A DNA stretch of 64,000 nt from Panopea generosa (Eukaryota; Mollusca; Bivalvia; Adapedonta; Hiatellidae): positions 3,969,616 to 4,033,615 of the forward strand of contig CM055896.1 of the NCBI GenBank assembly GCA_029582155.1, given 5' to 3'. This document shows positions 37,940 through 56,421 of this stretch, one piece after another (the first letter of the stretch is position 1; each line of letters begins with the position of its first letter). The notes beneath the pieces were generated by a model. That model saw only the letters and a program-made list of their open reading frames with translations, was not told where the DNA came from and made no database searches. The translations under genes were made by a program, and so were the position numbers.

Positions 37940-39450
37940 CAGGCTTTACAGGTAACTTTGAATGTGATAAGTTTATCTTCATATCCACTAGATATATAGA
38001 TGTAGTTTTGAGTGTTACATGTATTAGCCCATATGGAATATTCGCGAGAGGTGTCACAGGTAACTTTAAATGAGATTAGCTTAGCTACATTTTAACTAAA
38101 TAGATTACAGGTAGCGTGGAGTGTGATTAGTTTATCTTCATATTAACTAAGTATATTACAGGTAACGTTGAGTGTGATTAGTTTATCTTCATAGTAACTA
38201 AGTATATTACAGGTAACGTGGAGTGTGATTAGTTTATCTTCAAGTAACGTTGAGTATAATACGTTTATTTTCATATTAACTAGATATATTACAGGTAACG
38301 TTGAATATGATTAGTTTATCTTCATATTAACTAAATATATTTCAGGTAACTTTGAGTATGATAAGTTTATCTTCATATTTACTAGATATATTACAGGTAA
38401 CGTTGAGTGCGATTAGTTTATTTTCATATTAACTAGAATATATTACAGGTAGCTTTGAGTATGATTAGTCTATCTTCATATTAACAAAGTATATTACAGA
38501 TAACGTGGAGTGTGATTAGTTTATCTTCATATTAACTAGATATGTTACAGGTAACGTTGAGTATAATACGCTTATTTTCATATTAACTAGATATATTACA
38601 GATAACGTTCAGTATGATTAGTTTATCTTCATATTAACTAAATATATTTCAGGTAACTTTGAGTATGATAAGTTTATCTTCATATTTACTAGATATATTA
38701 CAGGTAACGTTGAGTGCGATTAGTTTATTTTCATATTAACTAGAATATATTACAGGTAACTTTGAGTATGATTAGTCTATCTTCATATTAACAAAGTATA
38801 TTACAGATAACGTGGAGTGTGATTAGTTTATCTTCATATTAACTAGATATGTTACAGGTAACGTTGAGTATAATACGCTTATTTTCATATTAACTAGATA
38901 TATTACAGATAACGTTGAGTATGATTTGTTTATCTTCATATTAACTAAATATATTTCAGGTAACTTTGAGTATGATAAGTTTATCTTCATATTTACTAGA
39001 TATATTACAGGTAACGTTGAGTGCGATTAGTTTATTTTCATATTAACTAGAATATATTACAGGTAACTTTGAGTATGATAAGTTTATCTTCATATTAACT
39101 AGATATTTTACAGGTAACGTTGAGTGTGAATAGTTTATCTTCATATTAACTAGATATATTACAGGTATCTTTTAGTAGGATAAAATGATCTGATATATAA
39201 AAAAAGGTGTTACAGATAACGTTTAGTGGGATTTATGTCATAACATATTCGCTAGATTTATTAAAGGTAAATTTAAGTAAATGGTACATGTGTTAGGCCA
39301 TCTGACATATTTACGAGTGGTGTTACGGGTAATTTTAGGCTGATTAATTGATCTGTAATATAAACGAGAGATGTTACATGTAACTTTGAGTGTGATTAGC
39401 TGATCTAACATTTTCACGATAGATTTTGAAAGTTATTTCGACTTTGATCA
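37940..39450. repeat. 51-bp minisatellite with 307-bp higher-order unit
   Basis: Each monomer is close to ATTACAGGTAACGTTGAGTG then TGATTAGTTTATCTTCATA and TTAACTAGATAT. In the core, a six-monomer block repeats as a unit: its marker GAGTATAATACG occurs near 38253, 38560 and 38867, 307 bp apart. Flanking monomers (37940-38240 and 39110-39450) are more diverged, as expected for array edges. Confidence 0.95.
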
Positions 39451-39858
39451 GCCGATTTTTCAAGGAATCGAGTTTTTTTTGGTGTATAGTTATAGTATAT
39501 AAAGTGAAGAAAAACTTACTCATATCCAAGGTCATATGTATTGTATCTGTATTATCATCTATATATTTTATAAGCCAATTCGTTCAATTTGTTTAACTGC
39601 TTAAACACATGTTCTTATACAGTCAATAGCTGTATCCAAGCTGTCAACACTCGTAGATTTCAAAAGATAAAACTAGAAACACAGTTTAATTTTAAGAGAT
39701 AAAGCATCTCCGAACTAAATTCTGCGTCAGCCTTCTGCCATTACAATCTTCGTGTTATCTCATTATGATATATACCGAACAATATATCATTAAAATAAAA
39801 GCAAATAAATATGCCAACCGGTACTTTATGTTGGTTAATGCTAACATTCTGTCTATTA

Positions 39859-39940
39859 TCCCAGACAATATTCTCCAATTCGAAAAGGTGAAATCTCGCT
39901 CTCGTTAGTGACGAGATCTTGAGCTCAGGGGAATCGGTCA
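39859..39940 (+). repeat. Candidate left terminal inverted repeat
   Basis: Runs from CCCAGACAATATT through TTCGAAAAGG and AATCTCGCTCTCGTTAGTGA to TGAGCTCAGGGGAAT. It pairs with 56338-56421. The central segment is nearly self-complementary, so it matches the other end in both orientations. Confidence 0.5.
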
Positions 39941-40617
39941 CAATATAAACAAACGGTAGTGATGTTTCTGGCAGCGGTTTATACAACAAAAGTCTACACT
40001 TAACAGCCATGAAAAGAAAAAAAAACAACACAAGATACGAAAGAAAATGAAAAAGTAAGTTTCTCATGATAAAATAAAATTACTTTTTATTGTTTAGTGC
40101 GTGTCTGTAATAATTTAATACTTGTTTTTCTGATGATGGGTGGGGTAATTTGTAAATTTCAGAAGTTCAGTATCCTATTGAATTTTGATCACTTACCTTA
40201 CTGTCATTCACAAATAAAGAATGGGTATACCTTAATTGTTAAATAGTTTAAGTGACATGACGGAATTTATTAATTATTCTGTCTTTAAAGAGATGTATTG
40301 TCTTATGAAATTTCTAACCCTAACTGGCAACATACTTGTTGCACTGTCAGTTATTCAGAAACAGTGATTTTATATCATAGTTATTACATTTCTTAGACAT
40401 TTTAATAAGTATTGTAATTTTCAGACACATTGACATTGTTGTTTTGAAAAGTGGTAATATAATTCTCGGACACAGTGGTAATTTAATTTTGAGACTTTGT
40501 GAAGATATTTATATGCTTTGTATTTGCATACACTTCAAAAATTTGTGTACCAAATAATACAGAGAAACCCTGCAGGAATTGTCTTATGAAGCTGTGACCC
40601 AATAATATAATAACAGT

Positions 40618-40700
40618 CACTACTGTCATGAACCAGAGATCAAACCTGAAACCCATGAATCACGGGTCTGACATCTTATCATGTAGTCTGACATTGCAAA
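40618..40700 (-). mobile_element. Decayed tRNA-like SINE head
   Basis: A reversed head-like segment with ACCAGAGATCAAACCTGAAA, CACGGGTCTGACATCTTATC and an A-box remnant. Too diverged to place. Confidence 0.35.
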
Positions 40701-41195
40701 AACAAGCATGATTGAATTTTAAATAGTAATATTACCCTTAGCTTGATGAAGAAAAGCTATATTCTTCTTTTAGTTGATTTTTGCACTACGTGTTGATGTA
40801 GACCCAGGCTAGCCTGCACATCTATGTCGTAATATCAGGGTCTATGCTGTTTAATCAATAAATTATCAAAAAACACTATAAAAAAAGGAATGGAATTTAA
40901 GGTAACATGGTCTGTTATTTTTAATTGTCTAAGAAGGAATAATAAATTATTGATTTAAATAAAATCTTATTTAGCTGAAATGTTAAAATTGACAGCATTA
41001 ATATTTTTTTATATCTTTTTTCTTATCATATTAAGCTGCTGCATCCATTGCTGCATAGCAGGAAATTGTTATAAGATTTTAATTTCATACCCTTTTTAAA
41101 TAAATGTAGATCAAGCATAGTTGTTGGGGGTATGGGGAAGGGTGTGGTTGTTGTTTTACATAACCGGCACTGTTTTTTTATAAATCACATTGTGC

Positions 41196-41590
41196 ATTTT
41201 ACCAGTAAGTGAAGAAGCAGATAGGGCGGCTAAGGAGGGCCTAGGAATACAAAACTATTTCCAATTCAGTCCCCCTTGCACCAACCGAGGTCTATTCCTT
41301 AACAAGGAAAATAATCATTAAGAAATGGTCCACTTTTATTTCTAAAAAAACATTTAAACAAACATTTCGCAGGACCTCGGTTAATTTCAGACGACCAACA
41401 AATTACTCTAATAATAAGAGAATTGATGAATGCATTACTCGTCTGAGATTGGGTGTAAATCTCCTCCCAGGAAATAGAGGATAATATATAATTAATAAAG
41501 GGAGATATTGCACCCAGTGCAAGGAAAAAATTACCACTGAACATCTTCTGCTACACTTGCCCGATTCACAGGGTTCCCCCGGTCAAATTT
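41196..41590 (+). pseudogene. LINE ORF2 3' end (RNase H and zinc-knuckle end), broken
   Basis: The frame at 41202 gives ILPVSEEADRAAKEGLG, the closing part of a retroelement RNase H (N-x-x-AD-x-AA-x-E). A frameshift near 41310 leads to IIKKWSTFISKKTFKQTF, RIDECITRLRLGVNLLPGN, a stop, and then RYCTQCKEKITTEHLLLHL. The LRLG and C-x2-C...EHLL pattern is the C terminus common to non-LTR reverse transcriptases. It has at least one frameshift and one stop, no upstream RT domain in the window, and no poly(A). It is a dead 5'-truncated copy, nested in the candidate transposon. Confidence 0.75.
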
Positions 41591-42574
41591 AAGGACTGCG
41601 CTTGCTGGAAATAAGGTAGATTTCGACATTAATAATATTTTGAACCCCAGCAAGGCAGTCCGGGCCTCAGTCTATAAAGCTTTGGAATGTTATATTCTAG
41701 ACTGTCAGATGTCTGACAAAATATAGACTTAAAAATTCAGGCCCTAATTTCATCAGTTATCCCTGAAACTACCACCCAGGGTCAGCAAAAATGTTTTATA
41801 GTACTTTGATTGGGGTTTCCAGTATGGTTTGATTTACTTGTTGTAGTGCTTGGTCCTTCTAAGTACAAAAAGTATCAGTTTCTAGTGGGAGGTGGGGTGA
41901 GACCACAATGCAGTCCACAAAAATGTTGTGTGGCCTGGGGTGTGGACTCATGCCACCTCCCACAGCTGAGCCATGCTTACCCAGAGAGAATTGTCATGTT
42001 AAAATATCAGATATGTAGTAAAATATTTTTGTCAGGCTTACATTCAGTCTGATTGAATTATAAATTGATTGGCATGAGAGTGATTTTTTTTTATGCCACC
42101 TTAAAATAACCTCCATTAAAAAGGAGATTGTATATGGGATTTATAACATTCACAACAAATATATGCTGACCCTGGGGAATGATAATATTCATTATATTAT
42201 CAAGGGACCTGGCCCGGTACCCCAGCACGGGTGATAAAAAATTTTTTACAGGGCCCCAAAATTCAGTGGAATACTATTATTAGCAATATTAATTAGGCCT
42301 GGACCTGTTAGGCCCAAGCGGCTAATTAGCTCTATCCTAAATGCAACAATATATTATTTTTACTATCAATGTTATATATAATGTACAAAACTTTTAATAA
42401 TATGTTGTTTATTTTATAACCCTAAACTGGGCCGTTTTGTACGTAGGAGACAGGATTATAACCATTATTTTTAAGTAACTTATTTTAAATATGTACTATT
42501 ATTTTAATAAAATATTGTTGCACTTAGAAAACAGCTTTTTATCCTACACCACATGAACATCATATAGCCTGTGT

Positions 42575-43809
42575 AATTCCAACCAAGATTCACTGGTGTG
42601 TGTATAAGTTTTTATTTATCCTCGCGCTTTGAACAAGTCATTTTGGCGAGCAGGATAGGATGATTATTAAAAATTAAAAGATGATTACACATTTCTGTGA
42701 TGATTAATGTGTGATGAATGGAGATGATTCACATAATAAGTCGTGTCTATATTCAACTTTGAAGTTTGTTATTAACTGAGTTGTTTAATACAACAACATT
42801 TTTATATTTTTGCATTCGGTGCTTACTAATTCTAACATTGTTTATACTCATGATATTTTTAAATTTGTAGATTGACGACCAAAGTGTAGATTAATCGACT
42901 AAGAATATTATTATTTCTTTTTGTATTTACCGATTGCAGCCATATATTACTTATTAGTGCATGTAATTGATTAATTTAAATAAGGTGCACATATGGTTGT
43001 TCACCAATATTTTAAGTTAAACAACGCTGCTCATAGCGCAAATTGCTTTGCTTATAACGTCAGCGATATTCAACCTAACTATAAACCTTAGATAAAAATT
43101 TAATTCCATCCAAGGTGTTATCTGAACACATTAATTGTGTGTGGTTACAATGGTAAAATATAAGTACTTATCTTATGTAACCATGTATCCAGCGTACCAC
43201 CAATAATTGTCAATAGTAAACCATCAACAAATTATGGTGTGCCGTAAAACCCCAATCATAGTGTTTGATGGTATAAATGAACTGACCTAAATGGTTTGGC
43301 TGCAATGGAATTTATGGGATGTGTATTATTTTTGTACATTGTCACAGCTACTTATCATGCTATTTGTATATATTTGTAGTATCAGCTGAAGAGGGTATTA
43401 TCCATCAGCATATCGCACTTTATTTAAAAAATGACCAGTCACTGTTAATCGTACCATTCTGCATCAATAATGGTAAAGAATGGTTTAAGAGTGTGTTAAA
43501 ATAAAGTGACGTTAAACTGTGAAATATGTATAATAGGGCACCCGGCAGCTCGCGCGTACCTTAAAAGTGCCAATAATAAAAAATATTTTAAGAAATCAGA
43601 TATCATCTCAGATCAGATCTGAAATGAACTGATTAACAGTAACTGGTCCCAAATATTTAGAATAAAAAATAGTCTTGTGTAACTCTATACTGAATATCAG
43701 GGTGGTAGTAACCATAATATTCCCTACAACCGCACTCATTAGTGTATATTGAGTGCGATGAGACATATAATCCCGTACCAACAGGTACGTTATTATTTTT
43801 ATGCGATAG
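42575..43809 (+). repeat. Copy 1 of a large unclassified repeat (direct)
   Basis: Begins GATTCACTGG and includes CTCGCGCTTTGAACAAGTCA, TTTTGGCGAGC, TTGTCAATAGTAAACCATCA, GTGTGCCGTAAAACC and GGGCACCCGGCAG. The same landmarks in the same order occur in copy 2 and, inverted, in copy 3. No coding frame is recognisable. Confidence 0.85.
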
Positions 43810-45208
43810 ATTCACTGGTCATCAAGTGCAATCTTTTGTATGTATAAGTGTTTCTTTACCCTCGCACTTTGAACTAAGTCATTTTGGCGAGCCGGATAAG
43901 ATGATTATTTAAAAAACAGGATGATTGCTTAAAAAGCAAGGTGATTATATTAAAAGATAAGATGATCATTTAAAATTAATGATAATGATGATGATGAAGA
44001 TGACGGCGATAATCGGTGATTACCCACTATGGAGTTTAAACACTTATTGTTTTATAAATATGGACATTCCTATTTTTACTTAATCAGTTGTTTAATTAGT
44101 TATTTTTAATTGCTTATATTGATGCAGACTTTATACGATTTACTTCAATATTCAAATACTAATGTTTAATTATTGAGACTCCAGGCATTCTACTCTACCT
44201 TGTGCAGCCAAAATATGATTTAAAAATATTAGTACCGATTGTACTAGCATTACTATGGTATGTGTAAAACCTATATATTAGGCCAGACGCTTTTGCTTAT
44301 AGCGCAAATAAATTTGCTTGAGATATCATAAGCGTCCGACCCAACTTGAACCCTCAACAGGAATGATTCCCGCTGATTGTTTATCTGTGCACACTAATTG
44401 TGCTCAGTTGCTATGGTAATATTTTATTTGTATGACAGTACCGTTAGCAACCGTATATACCACATACAGAGAGTAATTGTCAATATATAAATATCAACAA
44501 ACTAAAGTATGCCGTAAAACCAGCAACAATATTATTTTGTTGCTGGTATGGTACTTGACTTAAAAGAATATGGCTACACAGGTATTAATGTTTAAGTAAA
44601 TGAGGTTTCATATATTAGTATATTTTCAGTCGATCGTCTTGCATAGCTCTATATTGAATGCCTATGATACTAATAACATCATTTGACATTCTCTAAAACC
44701 ATTATACAGTAGTATTTACTGTTAATGGTGAACCATATAACCCTGTACACACGTACATTGTTATTTATATACTTTAAATTGTATATTTGTATTTGTATGG
44801 TAAACTAGAAAGTTGTAATAACTTCTAAAAGTGTTCAACCATTTTTTTTTAATAATATAGCGGCAGGTACCGCTATATCATAGTTTGAGCTACGCAAGTT
44901 TATGAATAATTAATTTATTGAAAAATGTTCGTCAGCCTTGCAATATTTTGCTAGTATACCACACTATTAAAATGTGACCAACCACCGCTAATCTCCCATG
45001 ATGTATCAGATATTGGTACACAATGGACTAAAAGTATGTTAAAAATTGTTATTAAATTAAATTGTGATGTTTGTAAAGAAGCACCCGGCAGATTGCTCGT
45101 ACCTAAAAAGCGCCATAATTAAAAAATATCTTAAAAAATCCGATATCCCCTCAGGTAGTGAATACGGAGTTACTATATAGTCCCGTAATCAACATGATAT
45201 ACGTTATC
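43810..45208 (+). repeat. Copy 2 of the large repeat; left arm of a giant palindrome
   Basis: A direct tandem neighbour of copy 1, with CCCTCGCACTTTGAACTAAG, GGCGAGCCGG, a GAT/GAC-rich run near 43980, AGCAACAATATTATTTTGTT (itself a hairpin), GCACCCGGCAGATTGCTCG, and the end TCAACATGATATACGTTA. Compared with copies 1 and 3 it lacks about 140-160 bp near 45155. Confidence 0.9.
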
Positions 45209-45265
45209 GCAATCTTTTGTTTACATCTTCTCCGGGTCAACATTCCATTGAAGGTCAAACGCTGC

Positions 45266-45378
45266 CGATTGGCTGGATTTCAATCACGGACCTAATAGTG
45301 AACAGTTCTATTTTTACTTCACAGTTTTATGTCCTGAGCTTAAAGCCGAAAACGGATTGAAATCTAGCCAATCGGAAT
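45266..45378. repeat. Short inverted repeat in the palindrome loop
   Basis: GCCGATTGGCTGGATTTCAA near 45267 pairs with TTGAAATCTAGCCAATCGG ending near 45377, giving a nested hairpin of about 20-bp stems with a loop of about 70 bp. Confidence 0.85.
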
Positions 45379-45587
45379 GAGCGTTTCATTCCCGATCGAA
45401 CCACTCAGCGACCGGCTTTTATTGGGGCCTTTGGCCCTACTGATGTTGATCTGGGGAAGAGATGTATTATTAAATATGAACATGAACGCTTTATATCTAG
45501 TAATGGATGTGTATTATACACATTTTAGCGTTTTTTGCATGTTTATATTAATTTATAATGATTATAATTTTAATAATTATTTAAATA

Positions 45588-47090
45588 GTAACGTATATCA
45601 TGTTGATTACGGGACTATATGGCAACTCCGTATTCACTACACAGCATTGAGTACGGTTCTAGGGAATATCATGGTTAGGAAATGCCATGATACTCATTAT
45701 TGAATTACACAAGACTACTTTATAAATATATAGTGACCAACTTCTACTAATCAGTTCTCAGCAGATCTGATCTGAGGGGATATCGGGTTTTTTAAGATAT
45801 TTTTTAATTATAGCGCTTTTTAGGTACGAGCAATCTGCCGGGTGCTTCTTTACAAACATCACAATTTAATAACAATTTTTATCATATTTTTAGTCCATTG
45901 TGTACCACTATGTGATACATCATGGGAGATTAGCGGTGGTTGGTCACTTTTTAATAATGTGGTGTACTGATAAAATATTGCAAGGCTGACGAACACATTT
46001 TAATAACTTAATTATTCATAAACTTGCGTAGCTCAATCTATGATATAACGGTACCTGCTGATATATTAATAAAAAAAATGGTTGAACACTTTTAGAAGTT
46101 CTTACAACTCTTTAGTGTACCCTACAAATATACAATTTAAAGTATATAAATAACAATGTACGTGTGTACAGGGTTATATGGTTCACCACTAACAGTAAAT
46201 ACTACTGTATAATGGTTTTAGGGAATGTCAATCGATGTTATTAGTATCATAGGCATTCAATATAGAGCTATGCAAGACGATCAACTGAAAATAGACTAAT
46301 ATATGAAACATCATTTACTTAAATATTAATACCTGTGCAGCCATATTCTTTTAAGTCACGTACCATACCAGCAACAAAATAATATTGTTGCTGGTTTTAC
46401 GGCATACTCTAGTTTGTTGATATTTTTGTATTGGCAATTACTGTCTGTATGTGGTATATACGGTTGCTAACGGTACTGTCATACAAATAAAAATATTACC
46501 ATAGCAACTGAGCACAATTAGTGTGCACAGATATACAGTCAGCGGGAATCATTCCTGTTGAGGGTTCAAGTTGGGTCGGACACTTATGATATCTCAAACA
46601 AATTTATTTGCGCTATAAGCAAAAGTATCTGGCCTAACATATAGGTTTTACATATAGTAAAGAACCATAATAACGCTCGTACACTTGGTACTAATATTTT
46701 AACTCATATTTTGGCTGCACAAGGTAGAGTAGAATGCCTGGAGTCTTAATAATTAAACGTTAGCATTTGGTTGTTGAAGAAGGTCATATAAAGTCTGCAT
46801 CAATATAAGCAAATAAAAACATTCAATAAAACAACCGGTTAAATAAAAATAGGAGTATCTATATTTATTAAACAATAAGTGTTTAAACTCCATAGTGGGT
46901 AATCATCGTTTATCGTCGTCATCTTCATCATCATCATTAGTTTTAAATAATCATCTTATCTTTTAAATAATCACCTTATTTTTTAAGTAATCATCTTGTT
47001 TTTTAAATAATCATCTTATCCGGCTCGCCAAAATGACTTAGTTCAAAGTGCGAGGGTAAATAAATACTTATACATACATACCAGTAAGTA
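45588..47090 (-). repeat. Copy 3 of the large repeat; right arm of a giant palindrome
   Basis: In reverse complement it has the same landmark order as copy 2: TAACGTATATCATGTTGATT at the inner edge, CGAGCAATCTGCCGGGTGC (reversed), the hairpin around 46370, the GAT-rich run near 46930 and CCGGCTCGCCAAAATGACTT at the outer edge. The region 45640-45780 keeps the piece lost from copy 2. The two arms of about 1.4-1.5 kb are separated by a loop of about 380 bp. Confidence 0.9.
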
Positions 47091-47681
47091 GCCAATTTAA
47101 TATATGATTAGCTTTTCAAACAGTTCACTGGACAAATAGGGACAGTGTCATATAGAATATTATACCTACAGGCATACTGCACAAAGTCCAGCTGCTGGCA
47201 CCCTGTAGAGCTTTCATAATTCACCAACACCACATTCACACCATGTGGTAATGGGAAATACCATGCCACAGTGTGCATATTGTACCCTAATTAGCATAAA
47301 TCACTCTAGGGTTTATGACCAGGATGTATGTAATATCACATAGTGTTATGACTTTATACATATTTAAACATTTTTTCGAAGTGACATTAAACAATCAATT
47401 TAAATACAAAATCTTTTATTTTTCTTGTTGCCTAAACTAAAATGTGCATCAGAAATTTAAAAAGAAAAAATCCTACACAACTTTGTATGATGTATTTGTA
47501 TTTAATTACAAAATATATGCAACTTTCTTAGTAAGTTCACAAAAAGGTTGAAAATGGTCAATTAGTATTTTTTTATCTCCATTTTTTAGAAATTATTCAT
47601 ATCTTAGTGGCACTCTGCTAACACATATTTTATACAAATAAAGAAGTTGATGATATAAACTAGAAGAAATAGAATTTATAT

Positions 47682-47751
47682 GTAACGTCCGTCCCAACTA
47701 CATATACATGTATATGTAGTTGGGATGTATATGTAGTTGAGACGGACGTAA
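47682..47751. repeat. Short near-perfect palindrome
   Basis: ACGTCCGTCCCAACTACATA on the left pairs with TATGTAGTTGAGACGGACGT on the right. The centre CTACATATACATGTATATGTAG is given by position 47698-47719 and is itself fully self-complementary. It may be a minimal foldback element. Confidence 0.85.
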
Positions 47752-48625
47752 GATATACATTTTACACTTCAGTGAATATCTTTCTTAAGCACACATGGGT
47801 CAATTTTTAGATTTTTTTTATAGTACATTAATATGTATGACAGCTGGTGAATGAATCATTCTTATTATCTTCTTGGAAGAATATATGCCAGTTTGTTTTT
47901 TTGTCACAAATTGAAATTATTTGATTTTATGTATTTTTTCTCAAATACACTATTTTAACAGTAAAAACAAAACTCTGCTGTTGAATAACATACAATAGCA
48001 AAGCGTTAGAAGGAAAATAACTTTGATTTAGTACATTTTCACATATATTTATGGATAAATAAAGGAACAAAGGTTTTAATTTTTATTTTCCATAACGAAG
48101 TACAGGACTGTATCAAATGTCTATTTAAGAATAAATGACCTACCTGACCGTGAAAAGCCACATATCAACATAAAAGTAATTAAATTATCTATCGATCAAA
48201 ATGAATAAAATGAGTTTGTGAACAATTAAATGACGTATTTGTATTTGAATAAAGGGTAAATTTTAGATGCCAACACATTATGCTCCCAAACATATGTTTT
48301 TAGGCCATTCTAAGCTCTAAAATAAAAATCATAGCTTTTTTGTGATAAATTAAAAAAACACAGTTAAGTAGTATTGATATGTTTTAATAGTAATGGTTAA
48401 AATTAGAAATTAACTTATATTTTGTTTTCTAAAATAATTTTCCTATTATTTTTTTTAAAAAATGGCCTATTTACTGTACAACAGGCACCATTAACTGTTA
48501 AACAGGCAAGCACAAGTTATATTTTTAAATACCACAATAAAAAATGTTTCTCTTATGAAATTCAAGCTGTTTTCATGTATGTGAGTTGTAAATTCTTCTA
48601 AAATATTTGTTTTGCTTATTTTTAG

Positions 48626-50701
48626 GTTTCTGATGTGCATTTACCAGACAGCCTTCGAGAACTCCACCAGTTAACGAACCCACAGCTTTCAACACTATTA
48701 AGACAACTACATATACCTTCTAAAGGAAAAGCGCAACCATAGAATCACGTTATTAGCCAAAAAACTGAACAAATGATCCTTTCATCAGCACTTTGAAGGA
48801 TGTGTCTAATATAGTTGAAGGCTGGGAAACTGATATACGTCTGGTGCCAGAGGTAAAACTTGATTATATAGTTCAATACCTTCTGGCATCACATGACATC
48901 ACTCCAAAGAAGAATGGTGACTATGAAGTCTATGATGAGAAGAGCCTTCGTTGCTACAAAGCCCTGCGTTCGTATAATTTGTGGGAGTCGGGCCATATCC
49001 ATGGCATTGAATACAATGAACTTGTAAGTCTCAGTAACCTTTTGTGCACTGAAATGTAAAGCCAACCCATCCTTCGACACTTCTGGAACACAATATGAAG
49101 TCATAGTTATACTGAAAGAATCTGGTGAACCAGTCGGGGCATGTTGTTCATGTGTTGCTGGGCTTGGTGAGGCATGTACTCATGTCGCTGGTTTACTTTT
49201 TGCAATTGAAGATTTCATTTCAAGAGGATATAAAGATCTACCGGACTGCCAAACCACAACAGAAAAACTATGTAAATGGGTTGCTCCTAAAGGTCCAAAG
49301 GTAACGCCCAAGCCATTAAAACAAATTCCTGTACAAAAACCATCAAAGTACAAAAAGGTTAAACTGTATAGTGCTAGTGAATTTAAACCAGTTCCAGAAA
49401 ACCTCAGACCAGTGGATATGAATGATTTGCAAACATTACATAATTCCCTATGCCTTATTAATCCAAATTTACCCTGGGTTAGAGGAGTGGCCCCTCAAGT
49501 GTTAGAGAAGATTCATCCCAGAGATGTTCTTGATCCAGTTCCAGTTTTAAGTTTACAGGACAATGTAGAATATTTGAACGAATCAATAGCACCTTCAAGA
49601 GAAGAAGAAGTATCTACTAATGAACAACCCCTGACATTAAAGGAAAGATTAACATATATTTTGCACGGTGACCAATTCGCAGAAGTTGTGAAAAAGATAG
49701 CAATGACGCCAGATGAAAGAACAATAGTGGAACATTTGACATTTGATCAATCTGCTTCTGTTGAATGGTTCCTTTACCGCCAGGGTATGATAACTGCATC
49801 AACTTTTCATCATGTTTCTGTCCATGTCGACAAACTCATCAGTTCAGGTATAAAAGAAAATACAGCAACAGATAAATTAGTGGATATGCTCGTCAACGGC
49901 AGTAAATTTAAAGGTAATGCTGCTACACGCTATGGGAGCAGTAGTGAGTCTGTAGCGGCAAAATTGTATGAACAGCAGTTCAAGAAGTCTCATCAGAATG
50001 TGGAAGTTTGTAAAAGAGGCCTTGTGATTGATAGTGAACATTGTTACATAGGCGTTTTTCATGATAGAATTGTTCAGTGTGACTGCCATGGAAGAAGACT
50101 GATGGAAATCAAATGTCCTTATACTTTCCAAACCAAAGATATTACGTTTGAGAGCCTTGATTATCTTTTTCAAATTAAAGGAAAATATCACCTGAAGCAG
50201 AAAGGCAATCCATACTATTCCCAAATCCAAGTACAAATGATGGTTACTGGTATCCGAGTCTCTGATCTTGTCATTTTTTATGGCAGTAGTATATGTGTTA
50301 TTCCTGTGGAGTATGACAGTGCCCATTGTGGTTTATTAATGAAGAACCTGAATTTCTTTTTCATTGAACATGTGCTGCCAACTCTTCTATGTCAAACCAA
50401 CAGCCCTTCTCTCAAAAGTGAGCAGGAAAGTTTAAATTGTGGTATTTTACAGGAAAGGAGAATTGTTCAAAACAGTGTAAGTGTCGATAGTGATAGATAC
50501 TACTGTGGTAAATGTGGAGAGTTGTTATCAGAAAACATTTCAGATAATAAACAGGCCAGTATTAAGTGTGAATGCCAATGTCAGTGCAATCAATGGTTTC
50601 ACTGGAAGTGTGTAGGCTATATTCCAGATCCAGACAACTTTGATGTTGAACCTCCATGGTTCTGCAGAAACTGTGTGAAATCTTGTGACATTGTCATGTG
50701 A
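48626..50701 (+). pseudogene. SAP-SWIM-YqaJ nuclease-PHD protein, N-terminal part broken
   Basis: After an acceptor-like TTATTTTTAG at 48625 the sequence encodes a SAP-like start (LRELHQLTNPQLSTLLRQL, PSKGKAQP) ending at a TAG (48740). A different frame from 48793 gives YDEKSLRCYKALRSYNLWES, and near 49035 a +1 shift leads to FCALKCKANPS. From there the frame is open to the TGA at 50699. The zinc-binding SWIM motif CSCVAGLGEACTH is at about 49150. The YqaJ/lambda-exonuclease core lies at about 49780-50300: MITAS, TRYGSSSESVAAKLY, LMEIKCPY (catalytic E-x-K), YYSQIQVQMMV. A PHD-type C4HC3 finger ends the protein (YYCGKCGE, CNQWFHWKCVG, PPWFCRNCV). The family is a nuclease common in mollusc, cnidarian and fish mobile DNA. 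Two frame breaks and one stop suggest a decaying copy, though assembly indels are possible. Confidence 0.85.
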
Positions 50702-51880
50702 GAATTAACAAATATTAGTTGGTGGGCCTGCATGGATCAGTAGGTAACATGTTTGACTCAATGAAGGTATCTCGAGATAGAATCCCAGCCTGGCTTCAGT
50801 CTCTGTAATTGTTCATGAACTTTGTCATGAGTCTACCCCTCTAAATATGTGGGGAAGTAGTGACTTGAGGAGATCAGGCAAATCTTGTACTAGGCTAATT
50901 ATAGCATAGTGCATCCCAGGAATGATAAGTGTACTACCATTGTTAATAACTAATATACTGTTGAAAAAAAATCGGCTTTAAATCCTTATGTTTACATTAT
51001 GTTTTCCATCTACTTAAGTTAAAACTTAAGTTATTTTAAGAACGGCCCTGGACTGCTCAGTTGATTATGAATTTGACTCTCAATCAAATAATTGTTTGTT
51101 TGAATCCGCGGGCCAGACTGACTCAGTCTTTTTTATGATTGTTCATGATCTTGTTCTGCAACCATCATGAATCGTCTGTTTAGGAAAGAAGTCAGTGATT
51201 TACAGAGATATGGTCAGTCTAGTATTTGTGTATCCCAGGAACAAGCAAAAGGTGTGGTAGCTGCCATTAAATAACTGAAAAACTTTTACAGGCAGGATTT
51301 TAGACAAAATCACAGCAATATGTGTACCCAATGCAACATTTTAATATTATCGTTTTTAAAATATGTTGAAAGTTTTAAAGACTCTTAATAATAGTCTGGA
51401 ATGTCTTGTTTGCAGCTTAAGTTATGTTTGTCTTGTAAACTGTATCACCAGACAAATAGCACAAGGCCAAATGTAATAATAGCTGTGATAACTATTTCCC
51501 ATCTGTCCCTTGAGATTTCACCATTTCATGTATTACATTGCTTGAAAAAAAAAAACATACGAATTTGAATGACAGGTGCTCACATAATTATTAAATGTGA
51601 TTTGATGATTTATTTTGCTTTCATTATTGTCTTTCAGTTATATGTACATGTATCATTTATATGTAAATATATATATATATATATTTAAATCCTATCAAGT
51701 CCTTCTTGGAGGGAAACAATTAACATGGCTATCATTTTATTTAACCTATTAATACATCCCTGCAAGGAGCTGCCATTAGTTGTTGAGAATACTTTCAAAA
51801 CTTGAATTTAAACTTGAGATATATGTGTATTTTGTTGAGTTGTCATAAAATAGTCTTAAGAAATTGAATTTGCTGTTGCA
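50702..51880. other. Spacer between converging genes, with SINE-like remnants
   Basis: Two decayed tRNA-like segments: 50722-50800 (GCATGGATCAGTAGGTAACA, GAGATAGAATCCCAGCC) and 51045-51180 (TGGACTGCTCAGTTGATTAT, TTTGAATCCGCGGGCC). A TA dinucleotide run sits at 51668-51685. No coding frame. Confidence 0.45.
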
Positions 51881-51898
51881 CTTGATATACATATATAT

Positions 51899-52118
51899 TG
51901 AACAGAACAGCTAACGAGCCACCTGACATTTTATGTATTAATATCGAAAAACTATTGAAGCTATTTCCTCAAAATTTAAGTGAAAATTGATATTTTAAAC
52001 ATTTAGGACTATCATTCAAAGTAAAAAAACAATACTGTTGATGAATTTTAAAAACCCTACTAAATATATTGACACAGATATTGGAAATAAAAAAGTGGCA
52101 GGTTAGCTGTTCTGTTCA
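51899..52118. mobile_element. MITE with perfect 17-bp terminal inverted repeats
   Basis: It starts TGAACAGAACAGCTAAC and ends with the exact reverse complement GTTAGCTGTTCTGTTCA, 220 bp in total and AT-rich inside. It has no coding capacity. A partial relative occurs near 59322 (CTGAACGGACCAGATAACCC then GCTGACATTTTGTG). Confidence 0.88.
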
Positions 52119-52868
52119 GTATACATTCATAATTAAAAAATATGAAGAACAATGATTTTTCAAGTAATTGTTTTTATTTACTCTCCCTCTCAGCTGTAAT
52201 CCACCATAAATGTAAATGCGGTTCAAGCAAATTTTACTTTAAAAGTATATGACTGGATTTTTTGCTACTATATGTTAACATGTGGTTCATATATATTGAC
52301 TTGCATACAAATATATAAATACAAGTTTAAAATAAATTCACTCAAATTTCTTTATGTCTCAAGTCGATTTGTTAATATCAAACATGCAAGTAACTTTTGT
52401 AAGCTTTCTATGAATCGCACATTTGTTTTCTCTTAATGGATAATAAAAATATACACGATATATACAGTGTCATTTAAAAAGAAGCCTTTCTTAATATTTT
52501 CTCAACTAAAACACTTTTGCTTGAACTTCAGAGACAATGAATTTGCTTTTCTTTCATATTTAGATGGTCATTAATGTGTAATGTTTCTCTTATCTAGACA
52601 ATATGATTATAGATATTCAATATTAATTGATCTCACCCAAACTCATGCATCCACAAACACGCTTTGAACATTAGACTAGAACTACACAAGATATTAACAT
52701 GGATAAAGAACAAATAAAAGTTAATCTGGTGTGCTATCAAGTTAACCTTTTCCTTGAAAAGCTTTTTGTTCATTACATATCAAGACTTCCCTTCTTGACT
52801 GTTAACTGTTAGCACATTTAACTCAACTACAACTATTTCAAGTTCATACAATCTTCACTTAATCAATT

Positions 52869-53994
52869 TCAAACTTTCAAGAATGGATCCTGAAAGTTGA
52901 TGAGATAACCACATGCTTTAAAAATGTTTTCATAAGCATCTATTTGACACAGTTTCATCTCTTTGGCCAAGAAAGCAAACTGTTTTATTCTTCTGATGGC
53001 TCTTTCAATATGAACTCTTGCCTCTGAAATCTTCTTGTTTTTCTTCAATTCTTCTTTGCTGAACTGTGATTTGTCTTTATGTTTTAATGATGGCATTACT
53101 AAATGAACTCCAGGAGGCAAGTCTTCGCTGATAATAAAGCCTCGGTCAACTTTTTCTCCGGGATAAAGGGCACCAAGTAAATCACAACTCTCATTCGTAA
53201 TTAATTTATCCGAGGCTCTTCCTCCGTACATTTGGGAAATGTATGTTATTGCACCTCCTGCATTTATTCCAACAAGAAATTTGATAGTACTGTGGTGCTT
53301 ATAGTAGGAAAACAATTGCTTGTGTGCAGACAATGATGATGGTGTTTCTGCAAAAAGTTCTGTGCAGTCTAGAATGATTCTTAGGTTACTGAACTCGGAG
53401 AAACAGTCAGCTGTCGGTACTTGCTCATTTCCAGTGTCGGATAGCTTTCAAATTTTCTCAAGTTCAATTGATAACAGACAAACCCAGGCATTGAATATGC
53501 TGGAAAATGTTGATTCGGCAATGCCAAATCTCACCGCCATGTCACCTGAGGGAATGCCCAACCGCAAACGTACTAGTGTAACAAAGAATTCATCTCTTAG
53601 ATCTAAAGTACGGATTCGTCCAGGTCGTTTCTTAAATTTCTCAGAATAATGGGAATGTGCCACTGTTCTTTCACCATATGGATATTTCATGTGAATTGCT
53701 TTTGGTTCTAAATAGTTAAACAATGCCTCAAACACATCATAGGAGGGAAATCCAGTATAGTATTTAAACATTTTTGGGTTCTGTTTAACATTGTAAAGTG
53801 TTAGGATTTGGCACTTGTCATTCATAGATTCCAATGTTTCCAACTATTCCTTGGCTTTCTCGCCTTTTTCAATGTATTCCTTAAGGGAAGGATCAACAGT
53901 TACCATGTGAATGAGGTTTGGTCAACTTCTGTTTTTAAATAGTCATGTCCATGTGGCTGAAAATCTGATGTATCCTCAACATAGCCTTCCCTCT
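52869..53994 (-). pseudogene. IS5/DDE_4-type transposase, with in-frame stops
   Basis: Reading leftwards from an acceptor-like AG at 53995, an N-terminal part (TVDPSLKEYIEKGEKAKE) meets a stop near 53847. Then come FKYYTGFPSYDVFEALFNYL, LRDEFFVTLVRLRLGIPSGD and a helix-turn-helix-like VRFGIAESTFSSIFNAW. A TGA lies at 53448-53450. The same frame continues with LRIILDCTELFAETPS, FSYYKHHSTIKFLVGI, ASDKLITNES, VDRGFIISEDLPPG and ARVHIERAIRRIKQFAFL. The catalytic triad is visible: D of LDCTEL, D of VDRGF, E of HIERAI. Order and spacing match the DDE_Tnp_4 family (IS5, Harbinger, ISL2EU). Intact catalytic residues with two stops suggest recent inactivation. The THAP exon upstream on this strand may be its first exon. 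Confidence 0.85.
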
Positions 53995-54245
53995 CTGGTA
54001 TAATTGTAAGATTTTGGATATAAAAAGCAAAAAAGCTTTAAAAAAACACATAACAATATATATGCAATCATTTCACTGAGCACCAGGCCACTCACTTTTG
54101 TACTTTTCACGTATACCGCAATAAAAGGAAGTACTCAGCCACTATCAATTGGTTAAAATATTTTTGAACCGACAAAATGTCAACTATGGTCATTAAGTAT
54201 GTGGTAATATATGTGAAGTTGCATTATATTTCTTGATCCCTTACT

Positions 54246-54463
54246 GGCAGGTCCTCATTAGCTCAATCAGTAGCGCGTCTGACTATCAATCCAGAGGTCA
54301 TGAATTTGAATCCCAATCCTGCCAGTCTCCTAGATGATTGATATATATATTATGCTATTGCACGTCATTATCATTCATTTCTCACCGAAGATTCAAGTGT
54401 GAAAGTTATATATAAGCCGTCAATGGCATAAATATGATGCCTAACATACAATCAAACAATAAA
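54246..54463 (+). mobile_element. SINE family B, internally deleted
   Basis: Head TCATTAGCTCAATCAGTAGC and GTCATGAATTTGAATCCC, body to GATTCAAGTGTGAAAG, then a jump to the tail GTCAATGGCATAAATATGAT and CAATCAAACAA. It lies in the putative intron between the THAP and transposase exons. Confidence 0.75.
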
Positions 54464-54549
54464 AATCCTTACTGATTAAATTGGTGTTGCGGTCTATTAA
54501 TAATTATAATTAATATCAATACTATTTATTCTTTTACAATTCGTTCAAG

Positions 54550-54840
54550 CTGGGCCTGATAAGCTCAGTTAGTAGCATCTGACTATCAATCCAGGGGCCG
54601 TTAGTTTGAATCCCCGCCTGGCAAGTCTCCGTGATGATTGATATATAATACGTCTCATTATTATTTGTGTCTCACCTCTGATTTATTTGGGAAATTTATC
54701 AGTTACTTGTATAGATGGAAAATGCCCGAGAACTGGTTAACCTTTCAGGATTCCAGGAAACAATGGTTAGATTAACTGATCGTCTTTTAACCTTCGATGG
54801 CATAAACATGATACTTAAATTCAATCAACCAATTAAATTC
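54550..54840 (+). mobile_element. SINE family B, near full length
   Basis: Head GATAAGCTCAGTTAGTAGCA, GTTAGTTTGAATCCCCGCC, GTGATGATTGATATATAATA, TCAGTTACTTGTATAG and tail GGCATAAACATGATACTTAA then TTCAATCAACCAA. The small open frame at 54715-54918 is a by-product of this SINE. Confidence 0.82.
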
Positions 54841-55379
54841 ATTAATGAATTAAAACTAAATGGAGAGAGCAGTCGTAGATTCTTACCAAAGGGAGCGTCA
54901 TGTCATCACAGTTGTTAATATTACTATGACTTACATCCATAGGAGTAGCCTGCAAAATGAATTAATAAAAATTAAAAGAAACAAAACAACCTGAGCTAAA
55001 TGACAATTTGGCAATGAATCATAAATGGCATTTATGGGCTTGAATTTTTTATTTTTTTTGCAAAAGCTTACTTTCCTGTAAATCATTATTTTCGTTGAAT
55101 ATCTTTTCGTCTTTTAATGTCTAAAACATACTAAATATAATGACTGATTCATACAAGTTTTACTAATAAAATATATTTTAATGAGTGCCTTACACAGCAA
55201 ATGTGCTGGAAGGTGTTTACGTGCTCTTTACCCAGTGCTTGCACTCCTTCCTCAGGAGAACCCTGGTGTGTGTGCGTGCTATGTTGCTTACAGACGTTTT
55301 TATACTACCGGTTCAGTTAAATGTTTGTTCCATGTTCTCTAACATCAATACAAAACTAAATATAACTTCATTTTTATTG

Positions 55380-55809
55380 GAAAATTTAATACTAGAAAAG
55401 ATAAATTTAACATACATAATACAGTTTCCTTGGTTTTCTGTGGTTCTCTGTGGCAAAACTGCTGATTTGTGGATTTGATGGTTGACCTTGGTTTTTTAGT
55501 CGATGAGTTCCGTCTGTTTGGAAATATGGAGGGCAGTACATATTTCCTTCCAGGTCGTCGGCATTTGGGATGCAAAATAGTTGTCTTCTCCTCGTCAGTG
55601 AAATGGCAGTCACATATACGGTGGTTGTCTGTTGGTATCCATTCCCTAAGTTTGCCATCTCCATCCTTGTAGCTCCGTTTTATTCTAGACTGCCACTGTT
55701 CATACAATCTTTTTGGCTTTTTTGGAATTGTATAAAATGTTGCACAGGGTGGATTTTTACTTCTCTTGTGGTTACACATAGGTACATAACAGTAGTCGTC
55801 TGATGGCAT
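55380..55809 (-). CDS. THAP zinc-finger DNA-binding exon
   Basis: From ATG at 55809 leftwards: MPSDDYCYVPMCNHKRSK, ATFYTIPKKPKRLYEQW, REWIPTDNHRICDCHFTDEE, then KYVLPSIFPNRRN. The C2CH zinc ligands (C of CYVPMC pair, C and H of CDCH), the conserved tryptophan and the closing LPSIFP (AVPTIF box) define a THAP domain, about 90 residues. A basic, serine/threonine-rich linker follows until about 55440; the exact donor is uncertain. THAP domains bind terminal DNA in P, Kolobok and ISL2EU transposases. Position and strand, 1.4 kb upstream of the DDE_4 transposase with SINEs between, fit a first exon of that gene. An independent THAP gene is the alternative. Confidence 0.82.
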
Positions 55810-56337
55810 TTTTATTGAACTGAAATAAAATTTATATAACAATAAACTTAAGTCACTAATAAATAGTTGTTGAGTAAAAATATTTATCAAAATTAAATGA
55901 ATAATGAAAAATGTACAGTACACTTACATGGGAATGTTGGTTTATGTATGTTGAAACTAGGCCACTCAGACACGAAGTTTTAAACTTCTTATTCATCTTT
56001 ATGTTCTCTTTATATATCTTGAATGCATTATGTATTTGAAACAAATTGATTAATTTCTTCTGCTATAATAACTTGTAATAATTTACATTTATTATGCCAG
56101 ACACACACATAATTTTAGTTTATGCTAACTTCACCTGCCCACACACTTGCAACAGTAATAAAGTCGCAATAAATAGATAATCATGGTCAAAAACCGCATA
56201 ATTTCTTATGTTCGTCCGTGTTACTAGCATACTCGCTAAAACTAAACTGCTTAAATAAATATTTGTATTACTAATGTATTAAAATTCAATTTACTTACGT
56301 GAAATCTACATTGCTTTAGCAGTGGACACAGTGAAAT

Positions 56338-56421
56338 GAATTCCCCTGAGCTCACATCTCGCGCATAATCTCGCTCTCGTACGCGACGAGAGTTCGGGAT
56401 TTCGAAGAGGTCAATACTGGG
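56338..56421 (-). repeat. Candidate right terminal inverted repeat
   Basis: Reads ATTCCCCTGAGCTCA, CATCTCGCGC, AATCTCGCTCTCGTACGCGA, CGGGATTTCGAAGAGG, CAATACTGGG on the + strand. Its reverse complement matches 39859-39940 in order, with the hairpin segment flipped. Confidence 0.5.

Follow-up and report, generated by a model that had tools for sequence, protein, structure and literature searches.

We analysed a 64,000-nucleotide stretch of the genome of the bivalve Panopea generosa (hereafter the window; C3:3969616-4033615 of a 1.47-Gb assembly in 39 contigs), which contains at 39872-56413 a mobile element with a YqaJ nuclease gene and a THAP/DDE transposase gene. The evidence supports a single THAP/DDE/YqaJ transposon at this locus, enlarged by a nested insertion, and the element is very probably a degenerate member of the ISL2EU group in the PHIS superfamily, once an autonomous cut-and-paste DNA transposon. 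ISL2EU elements, found in animals, are described as having an AT target-site duplication, a transposase with DDE, HTH and THAP domains, and a second open reading frame with a YqaJ domain (PMC4482050; PMC9179366). All three features are found in the window, namely a 2-bp AT target, a THAP, HTH and DDE transposase, and YqaJ as the second gene, and on this agreement with the published group features, compared by description, we filed the element as a new ISL2EU member. Taken alone, the window copy is a fossil. Its features, in window coordinates, are as follows.

39870..39871: left target-site duplication AT (tip set by other copies; AT duplication shown by the empty site of another copy)
39872..56413: whole element, assigned to ISL2EU, 16,542 bp with the nested insertion, collinear with the long copies on C7, C11 and C16
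39872..39934, + strand: left end, from TCTCCAATTCG inward to the core TGAGCTCAGGGGAAT at 39920-39934
41200..41210: left-hand TACCAGTAAGT, target duplication flanking the nested insertion
41211..47078: nested insertion, 5,868 bp, not present in any of the three sisters
47079..47089: right-hand TACCAGTAAGT, target duplication flanking the nested insertion
48626..48739, + strand: possible upstream exon of the nuclease gene, weakly SAP-like (Pfam SAP E 0.04, below the cut-off)
48769..49059, + strand: part of the nuclease gene, an open frame shifted relative to the next part
49028..50701, + strand: main open frame of the nuclease, 557 amino acids, with a SWIM-like motif, YqaJ at 49763-50254 (Pfam E 4.2e-16) and a PHD-like finger at 50504-50674
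52869..53447, - strand: transposase, DDE_Tnp_4 domain (Pfam E 8.4e-36)
53448..53843, - strand: transposase, HTH_Tnp_4 part, ending in an in-frame stop (Pfam E 8e-14)
55345..55923, - strand: transposase 5' exon, THAP domain at 55522-55791 (Pfam E 1.3e-8)
56340..56413, - strand: right end, from TGACCTCTTCG inward to the core TGAGCTCAGGGGAAT at 56340-56354
56414..56415: right target-site duplication AT (from the window itself and the tips of other copies)

Genes and sister copies

A first-pass annotation of the window, made from its letters alone, had proposed a nuclease gene converging on a THAP plus transposase gene, and this arrangement was borne out: the YqaJ frame on the forward strand faces the DDE, HTH and THAP frames on the reverse strand. 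The YqaJ, DDE_Tnp_4, HTH_Tnp_4 and THAP matches all pass the Pfam cut-offs, and the THAP exon is presumably joined to the HTH-DDE part by splicing. A comparison of the DDE part (192 amino acids) with solved structures returned no match at E up to 1. Between the THAP exon and the HTH part lie two repeats that are 81% alike and tRNA-like by eye (54275-54347 and 54575-54647), resembling a short interspersed element; ARAGORN found no tRNA gene in the window.

A search with the DDE domain, in which 150 of 347 candidates were scored, yielded three near relatives besides the window, on C16 (94% identity), C7 (91%) and C11 (76%), with the others at no more than 53% among the matches listed. The corresponding YqaJ search (78 of 321 candidates scored) confined high identity (81-95%) to the same four loci, the others reaching at most 43% among the matches listed. 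The copies on C7, C11 and C16 have the same tips as the window, with AT on both sides, and carry both genes in the same order and orientation. They are also collinear with the window, the mean identity of the blastn pieces above 85% being 92.2% for C16, 93.8% for C7 and 93.3% for C11, whose copy spans 9.9 kb. The first-pass proposal of one THAP/DDE/YqaJ transposon with matching ends is thus upheld by three other copies with the same tips and both genes, and the possibility it had raised against itself, that the genes might be bounded by other inverted repeats, did not materialize, since all four copies with both genes share these same ends.

The stretch at 41211-47078 is missing from all three sister copies and is flanked on both sides by TACCAGTAAGT, an exact 11-bp duplication; it is therefore a later insertion, and the nested insertion suspected earlier is indeed present inside the element. 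Nesting had been offered as the explanation of the element's large size, which it is only in part: the insertion accounts for 5.9 of the 16.5 kb, but the remainder, calculated without the insertion and one 11-bp repeat, is still 10,663 bp. Within the insertion, 43837-45206 and 45589-47078 form the main part of a large, imperfect inverted repeat whose arms, of about 1.3 kb, are 91% identical. By eye, its first codons look like the end of an RNase H, which suggests a 5'-truncated retrotransposon of the type without long terminal repeats. Other stretches of at least 40 bp are missing from single sisters (349, 120 and 2,038 bp from C16; 277 bp from C7; 388, 59 and 375 bp from C11).

No long copy is intact, and the damage differs among the four, C7, C11 and C16 having their own stops, shifts or deletions. 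The nuclease gene of the window is frame-shifted near 49.03 kb, and in the three sisters the part matching 48769..49059 reads in frame with the beginning of the following part. Likewise, the stop between the HTH and DDE parts of the window is not found in C7 or C11, and C16 lacks that stretch. When the window was compared with the three sisters, the ratio of nonsynonymous to synonymous substitution rates was below 1 in 12 of 12 comparisons (0.14-0.72; YqaJ 0.38-0.72, DDE 0.40-0.50, HTH 0.14-0.55, upstream nuclease part 0.17-0.61), values that rest on small numbers and include neutral decay. These ratios suggest that both genes may have been under constraint before they decayed.

Ends and target site

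The core block TGAGCTCAGGGGAAT occurs exactly at 39920-39934 on the forward strand and at 56340-56354 on the reverse strand. Within the window, two such matches are not very improbable, as 9 of 100 shuffles gave at least two at no more than 3 mismatches. Genome-wide the block is decisive, because it was found exactly in 484 places (237 + 247), compared with 10 (5 + 5) for the reversed control. Among 100 places listed, 31 inverted pairs lay less than 20 kb apart, including the window pair (16.4 kb); the other pairs were spaced by 1.05 to 10.8 kb, and their loci were retrieved, 29 whole and one in two halves.

In the other copies, two end types directly follow AT, namely AT|TCTCCAATTCG on the left and AT|TGACCTCTTCG on the right. 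As these tips start right after AT, the element in the window extends from 39872 to 56413, so that the single element delimited earlier at 39859..56421 stands as one element, but with its left edge 13 bp and its right edge 8 bp further in. This places CCCAG, previously listed among the shared inverted end motifs, outside the element. Present in the outer 20 bp of only 4 of 56 flanks, CCCAG was rejected as a terminal motif and is regarded as a coincidence of the flank, whereas the inverted core TGAGCTCAGGGGAAT is indeed shared by both ends.

We surveyed the target sites of 33 copies, comprising 29 shorter ones, the copies on C7, C11 and C16, and the window, with the tips located by a script. 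Both tips were clear in 28 copies, 24 of which had AT on both sides; they were unclear in L010, L015, L020, L021 and the window, whose tips fell outside the search range of the script and were AT/AT by reading. Among the 28 clear copies, one (L019, C2:45118927-45120980) has right-type ends on both sides, and the other 27 have one of each type.

One shorter copy, L024, is inserted in the 28-bp minisatellite CCCAGCCAATATTACTCAGACCTCCAAC of its right flank and serves as an empty-site witness. The 20-mer CCCAGCCAATATTACTCAGA, predicted for this locus after removal of the element and one AT, occurs intact six times in the same flank, which shows that the duplicated target consists of two bases, AT. 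At L009, the surrounding tandem repeat, although mutated, has by reading the length expected under the same 2-bp AT rule; L023 and L025 resemble one insertion copied twice. The TA target placed by the first-pass annotation at 39857/56422 was therefore replaced by AT at 39870-39871 and 56414-56415.

The second gene and its linkage to transposases

The first-pass annotation had described the second gene as a PHD- and SWIM-bearing exonuclease. Its YqaJ domain is clear, and we take the protein to be of the lambda-exonuclease type, with a PD-(D/E)XK fold; D346, E360-x-K362 and the QIQ-Q stretch are common to the window and a relative, L067. The C-terminal finger matches PHD weakly (E 5e-4, below the Pfam cut-off). 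In a search of PDB at E up to 1, all 16 sequences returned match this PHD-like region (E 0.033-0.52), mostly Pygopus, TAF3 (TFIID subunit 3), ING2, KDM5B (demethylase 5B) and PHF2, and none reached 0.001. The SWIM part of the description fared less well: it corresponds to a C-x-C...C-x-H pattern read by eye, and Pfam gave no SWIM match for the window part, the C16 sister frame or a spliced peptide of the relative. The YqaJ protein of the window additionally has a SWIM-like motif, a SAP-like exon and a PHD-like finger; none of these features is mentioned for ISL2EU in the portions of PMC4482050 and PMC9179366 consulted. No description of SAP, SWIM or PHD in the second gene of ISL2EU was found in the literature searched, although one may exist, and a literature search combining YqaJ, PHD finger and transposon gave no match.

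Linkage of the two genes extends well beyond the four long copies. When 89 YqaJ matches were grouped into 72 clusters and DDE matches within 10 kb were counted, 53 clusters had a DDE match nearby, and among the matches listed 52 of these pairs were convergent, one was in the same direction and none was divergent. The remaining 19 clusters had no DDE match within 10 kb, possibly since not all DDE candidates were scored. Two loci, L066 (C2:10677400-10683300) and L067 (C15:8007300-8013200), hold copies of about 5.84 kb whose alignment of 5,867 bases shows 99.4% identity. By reading, both copies are flanked by AT on either side, and their inverted ends, which begin with AGTCCTGTCCGA, measure about 43 bp. 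Long open frames in L067 carry SAP, YqaJ, HTH-DDE and THAP domains, the SAP domain lying upstream of the YqaJ frame (E 1.9e-5). This is a young ISL2EU-type family. Like the window, it combines convergent YqaJ and HTH-DDE genes, a THAP exon, a SAP domain (weakly SAP-like in the window), AT flanks and terminal inverted repeats; unlike the window, it is about 5.84 kb long with ends in AGTCCTGTCCGA, its aligned frame has no PHD tail, and its YqaJ frame is only 31% identical.

As judged from the families concerned, the THAP domain, together with HTH, would bind the element ends, with THAP contacting subterminal DNA such as the TGAGCTCAGGGGAAT block, and the DDE domain would excise the element and join it at AT. 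The YqaJ protein would act as an accessory nuclease, most likely on the DNA ends left by excision or insertion, its part in transposition being a probable accessory end processing. A stronger proposal, that the product of the second gene is a chromatin-directed exonuclease of several domains (SAP-like, SWIM-like, YqaJ and PHD-like) and is needed for transposition, is in our view rather unlikely. If it were true, the exonuclease could resect the donor break and lead to template repair, making the elements semi-replicative, and the convergence of 52 of the 53 linked pairs would be the mark of an obligate two-gene mechanism.

The locus documents an ISL2EU family that is large and old, has defined ends and a linked exonuclease gene, and whose AT target is supported by an empty site. 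Many convergent YqaJ-transposase pairs occur in the same genome, including the 5.84-kb family, in which long open frames are present and two copies are 99.4% identical. Since the function of the second gene of ISL2EU is stated as unknown in PMC4482050, a genome with so many YqaJ-transposase pairs offers a favourable setting for its study. Expansion or high numbers of YqaJ, THAP or HTH_Tnp_4 genes have also been reported for a vesicomyid clam and for scallops (PMC7826175; PMC10225492).

Classification and shorter copies

Several observations weigh against the ISL2EU assignment or the structure proposed for the element. Published ISL2EU ends usually start with GG, and the average length is about 4.84 kb (PMC4482050), whereas the window element starts with TCTCC and TGACC and its core of about 10.7 kb is more than twice as long. 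The conserved target context A|AT|T given in the same source did not hold here: the base preceding AT in 51 flanks was T in 23, A in 18, C in 7 and G in 3, and with the genome-wide left-end pattern A preceded AT in 55 cases and another base in 124. Because PMC4482050 defines the PHIS groups by the composition of the target-site duplication, we treated A|AT|T as a preference of the sampled families and not as a definition. Four of the 28 clear copies, L012, L017, L063 and L064, depart from AT/AT; the flank pairs seen among them are AC/AT, CT/AA, GT/AT and TT/AT. The empty-site check suggested earlier failed for the window itself, where a search with the joined flanks matched just the two flanks themselves, but succeeded in the minisatellite of L024. 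No THAP exon match was obtained in C16, and in C11 the match is limited to the 3' part of the exon. Finally, no match to the DDE, HTH or nuclease parts (E 1e-3) was obtained in any of 31 shorter loci bearing the same ends, and all 27 short copies that could be read carry an inner block, corresponding to 47140-47958, that is inverted with respect to their ends when compared with the four long copies.

These shorter loci bear on whether the ends occur alone with different neighbours, the outcome named in advance as damaging to the proposed transposon. They lack the DDE, HTH and nuclease matches, but 17 of the 31 keep a relic of the THAP exon, with stops in the longest matched piece in 14 of those 17. 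The 20 short loci compared first share parts of window 39870-40347, 40692-41203, 47140-47958 and 55508-56416 at about 64-90% identity. In the 29 short-copy loci (L009-L028 and L057-L065), the ends and the 47140-47958 block were both readable in 27, the block being absent from L010 and L019; in L018 and L022 it is present in both orientations. We considered the short copies as collinear deletions of the window's form and rejected this because of the inverted block. Over the first 220 bases, identity among the short copies amounts to 93% for the left end and 83% for the right one, compared with 76% (left) and 72% (right) between short and long copies and 80% and 70% among the long copies, the last values being lowered by insertions in C16 and C7. 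Over longer stretches, C7 and C11 are 91% identical to the left end of the window and most short copies 74-83%. The 31 shorter loci look like internally deleted relatives, though not simple deletions of the window's form, and our reading of these comparisons is that the short copies may constitute a related subfamily of their own, non-autonomous and more uniform.

Other transposon groups account for the element less well. PIF/Harbinger elements likewise have an accessory second gene and a DDE transposase of related type, and differ in their 3-bp TWA target and Myb/SANT accessory protein (PMC4482050). Placement in PIF/Harbinger proper or in another PHIS group (3-bp TWA, CWG, TNA or ANT target, with a Myb/SANT or unknown second gene) draws some support from the shared DDE_Tnp_4/HTH_Tnp_4 transposase type and from ends without the GG start usual for ISL2EU, but by the group features in that source it conflicts with the 2-bp AT target, the YqaJ instead of Myb second gene and the presence of THAP, and we consider it very unlikely. 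The first-pass annotation had suggested comparison with ISL2EU and Kolobok; the former fits and the latter does not. Kolobok transposons combine THAP with a DDE transposase and use a TTAA target, and we know of none with a YqaJ gene. Although THAP is present in the window, the 2-bp AT target, from the L024 empty site and 24 of 28 clear copies, and the DDE_Tnp_4 domain with HTH_Tnp_4 and an accompanying YqaJ gene make Kolobok even less credible than PIF/Harbinger. Equally implausible is a chance assembly of YqaJ and transposase genes from different elements between unrelated end repeats, which the shorter loci without DDE, HTH or nuclease matches and their inverted inner block would favour, but which is contradicted by three other dispersed loci with the same ends and both genes in the same order and orientation, by the convergence of nearly all linked pairs and by the THAP-exon relics.

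Outside the ISL2EU-type element and adjoining it on the left, a 51-bp tandem repeat array with a 307-bp higher-order period occupies 38056-39256.

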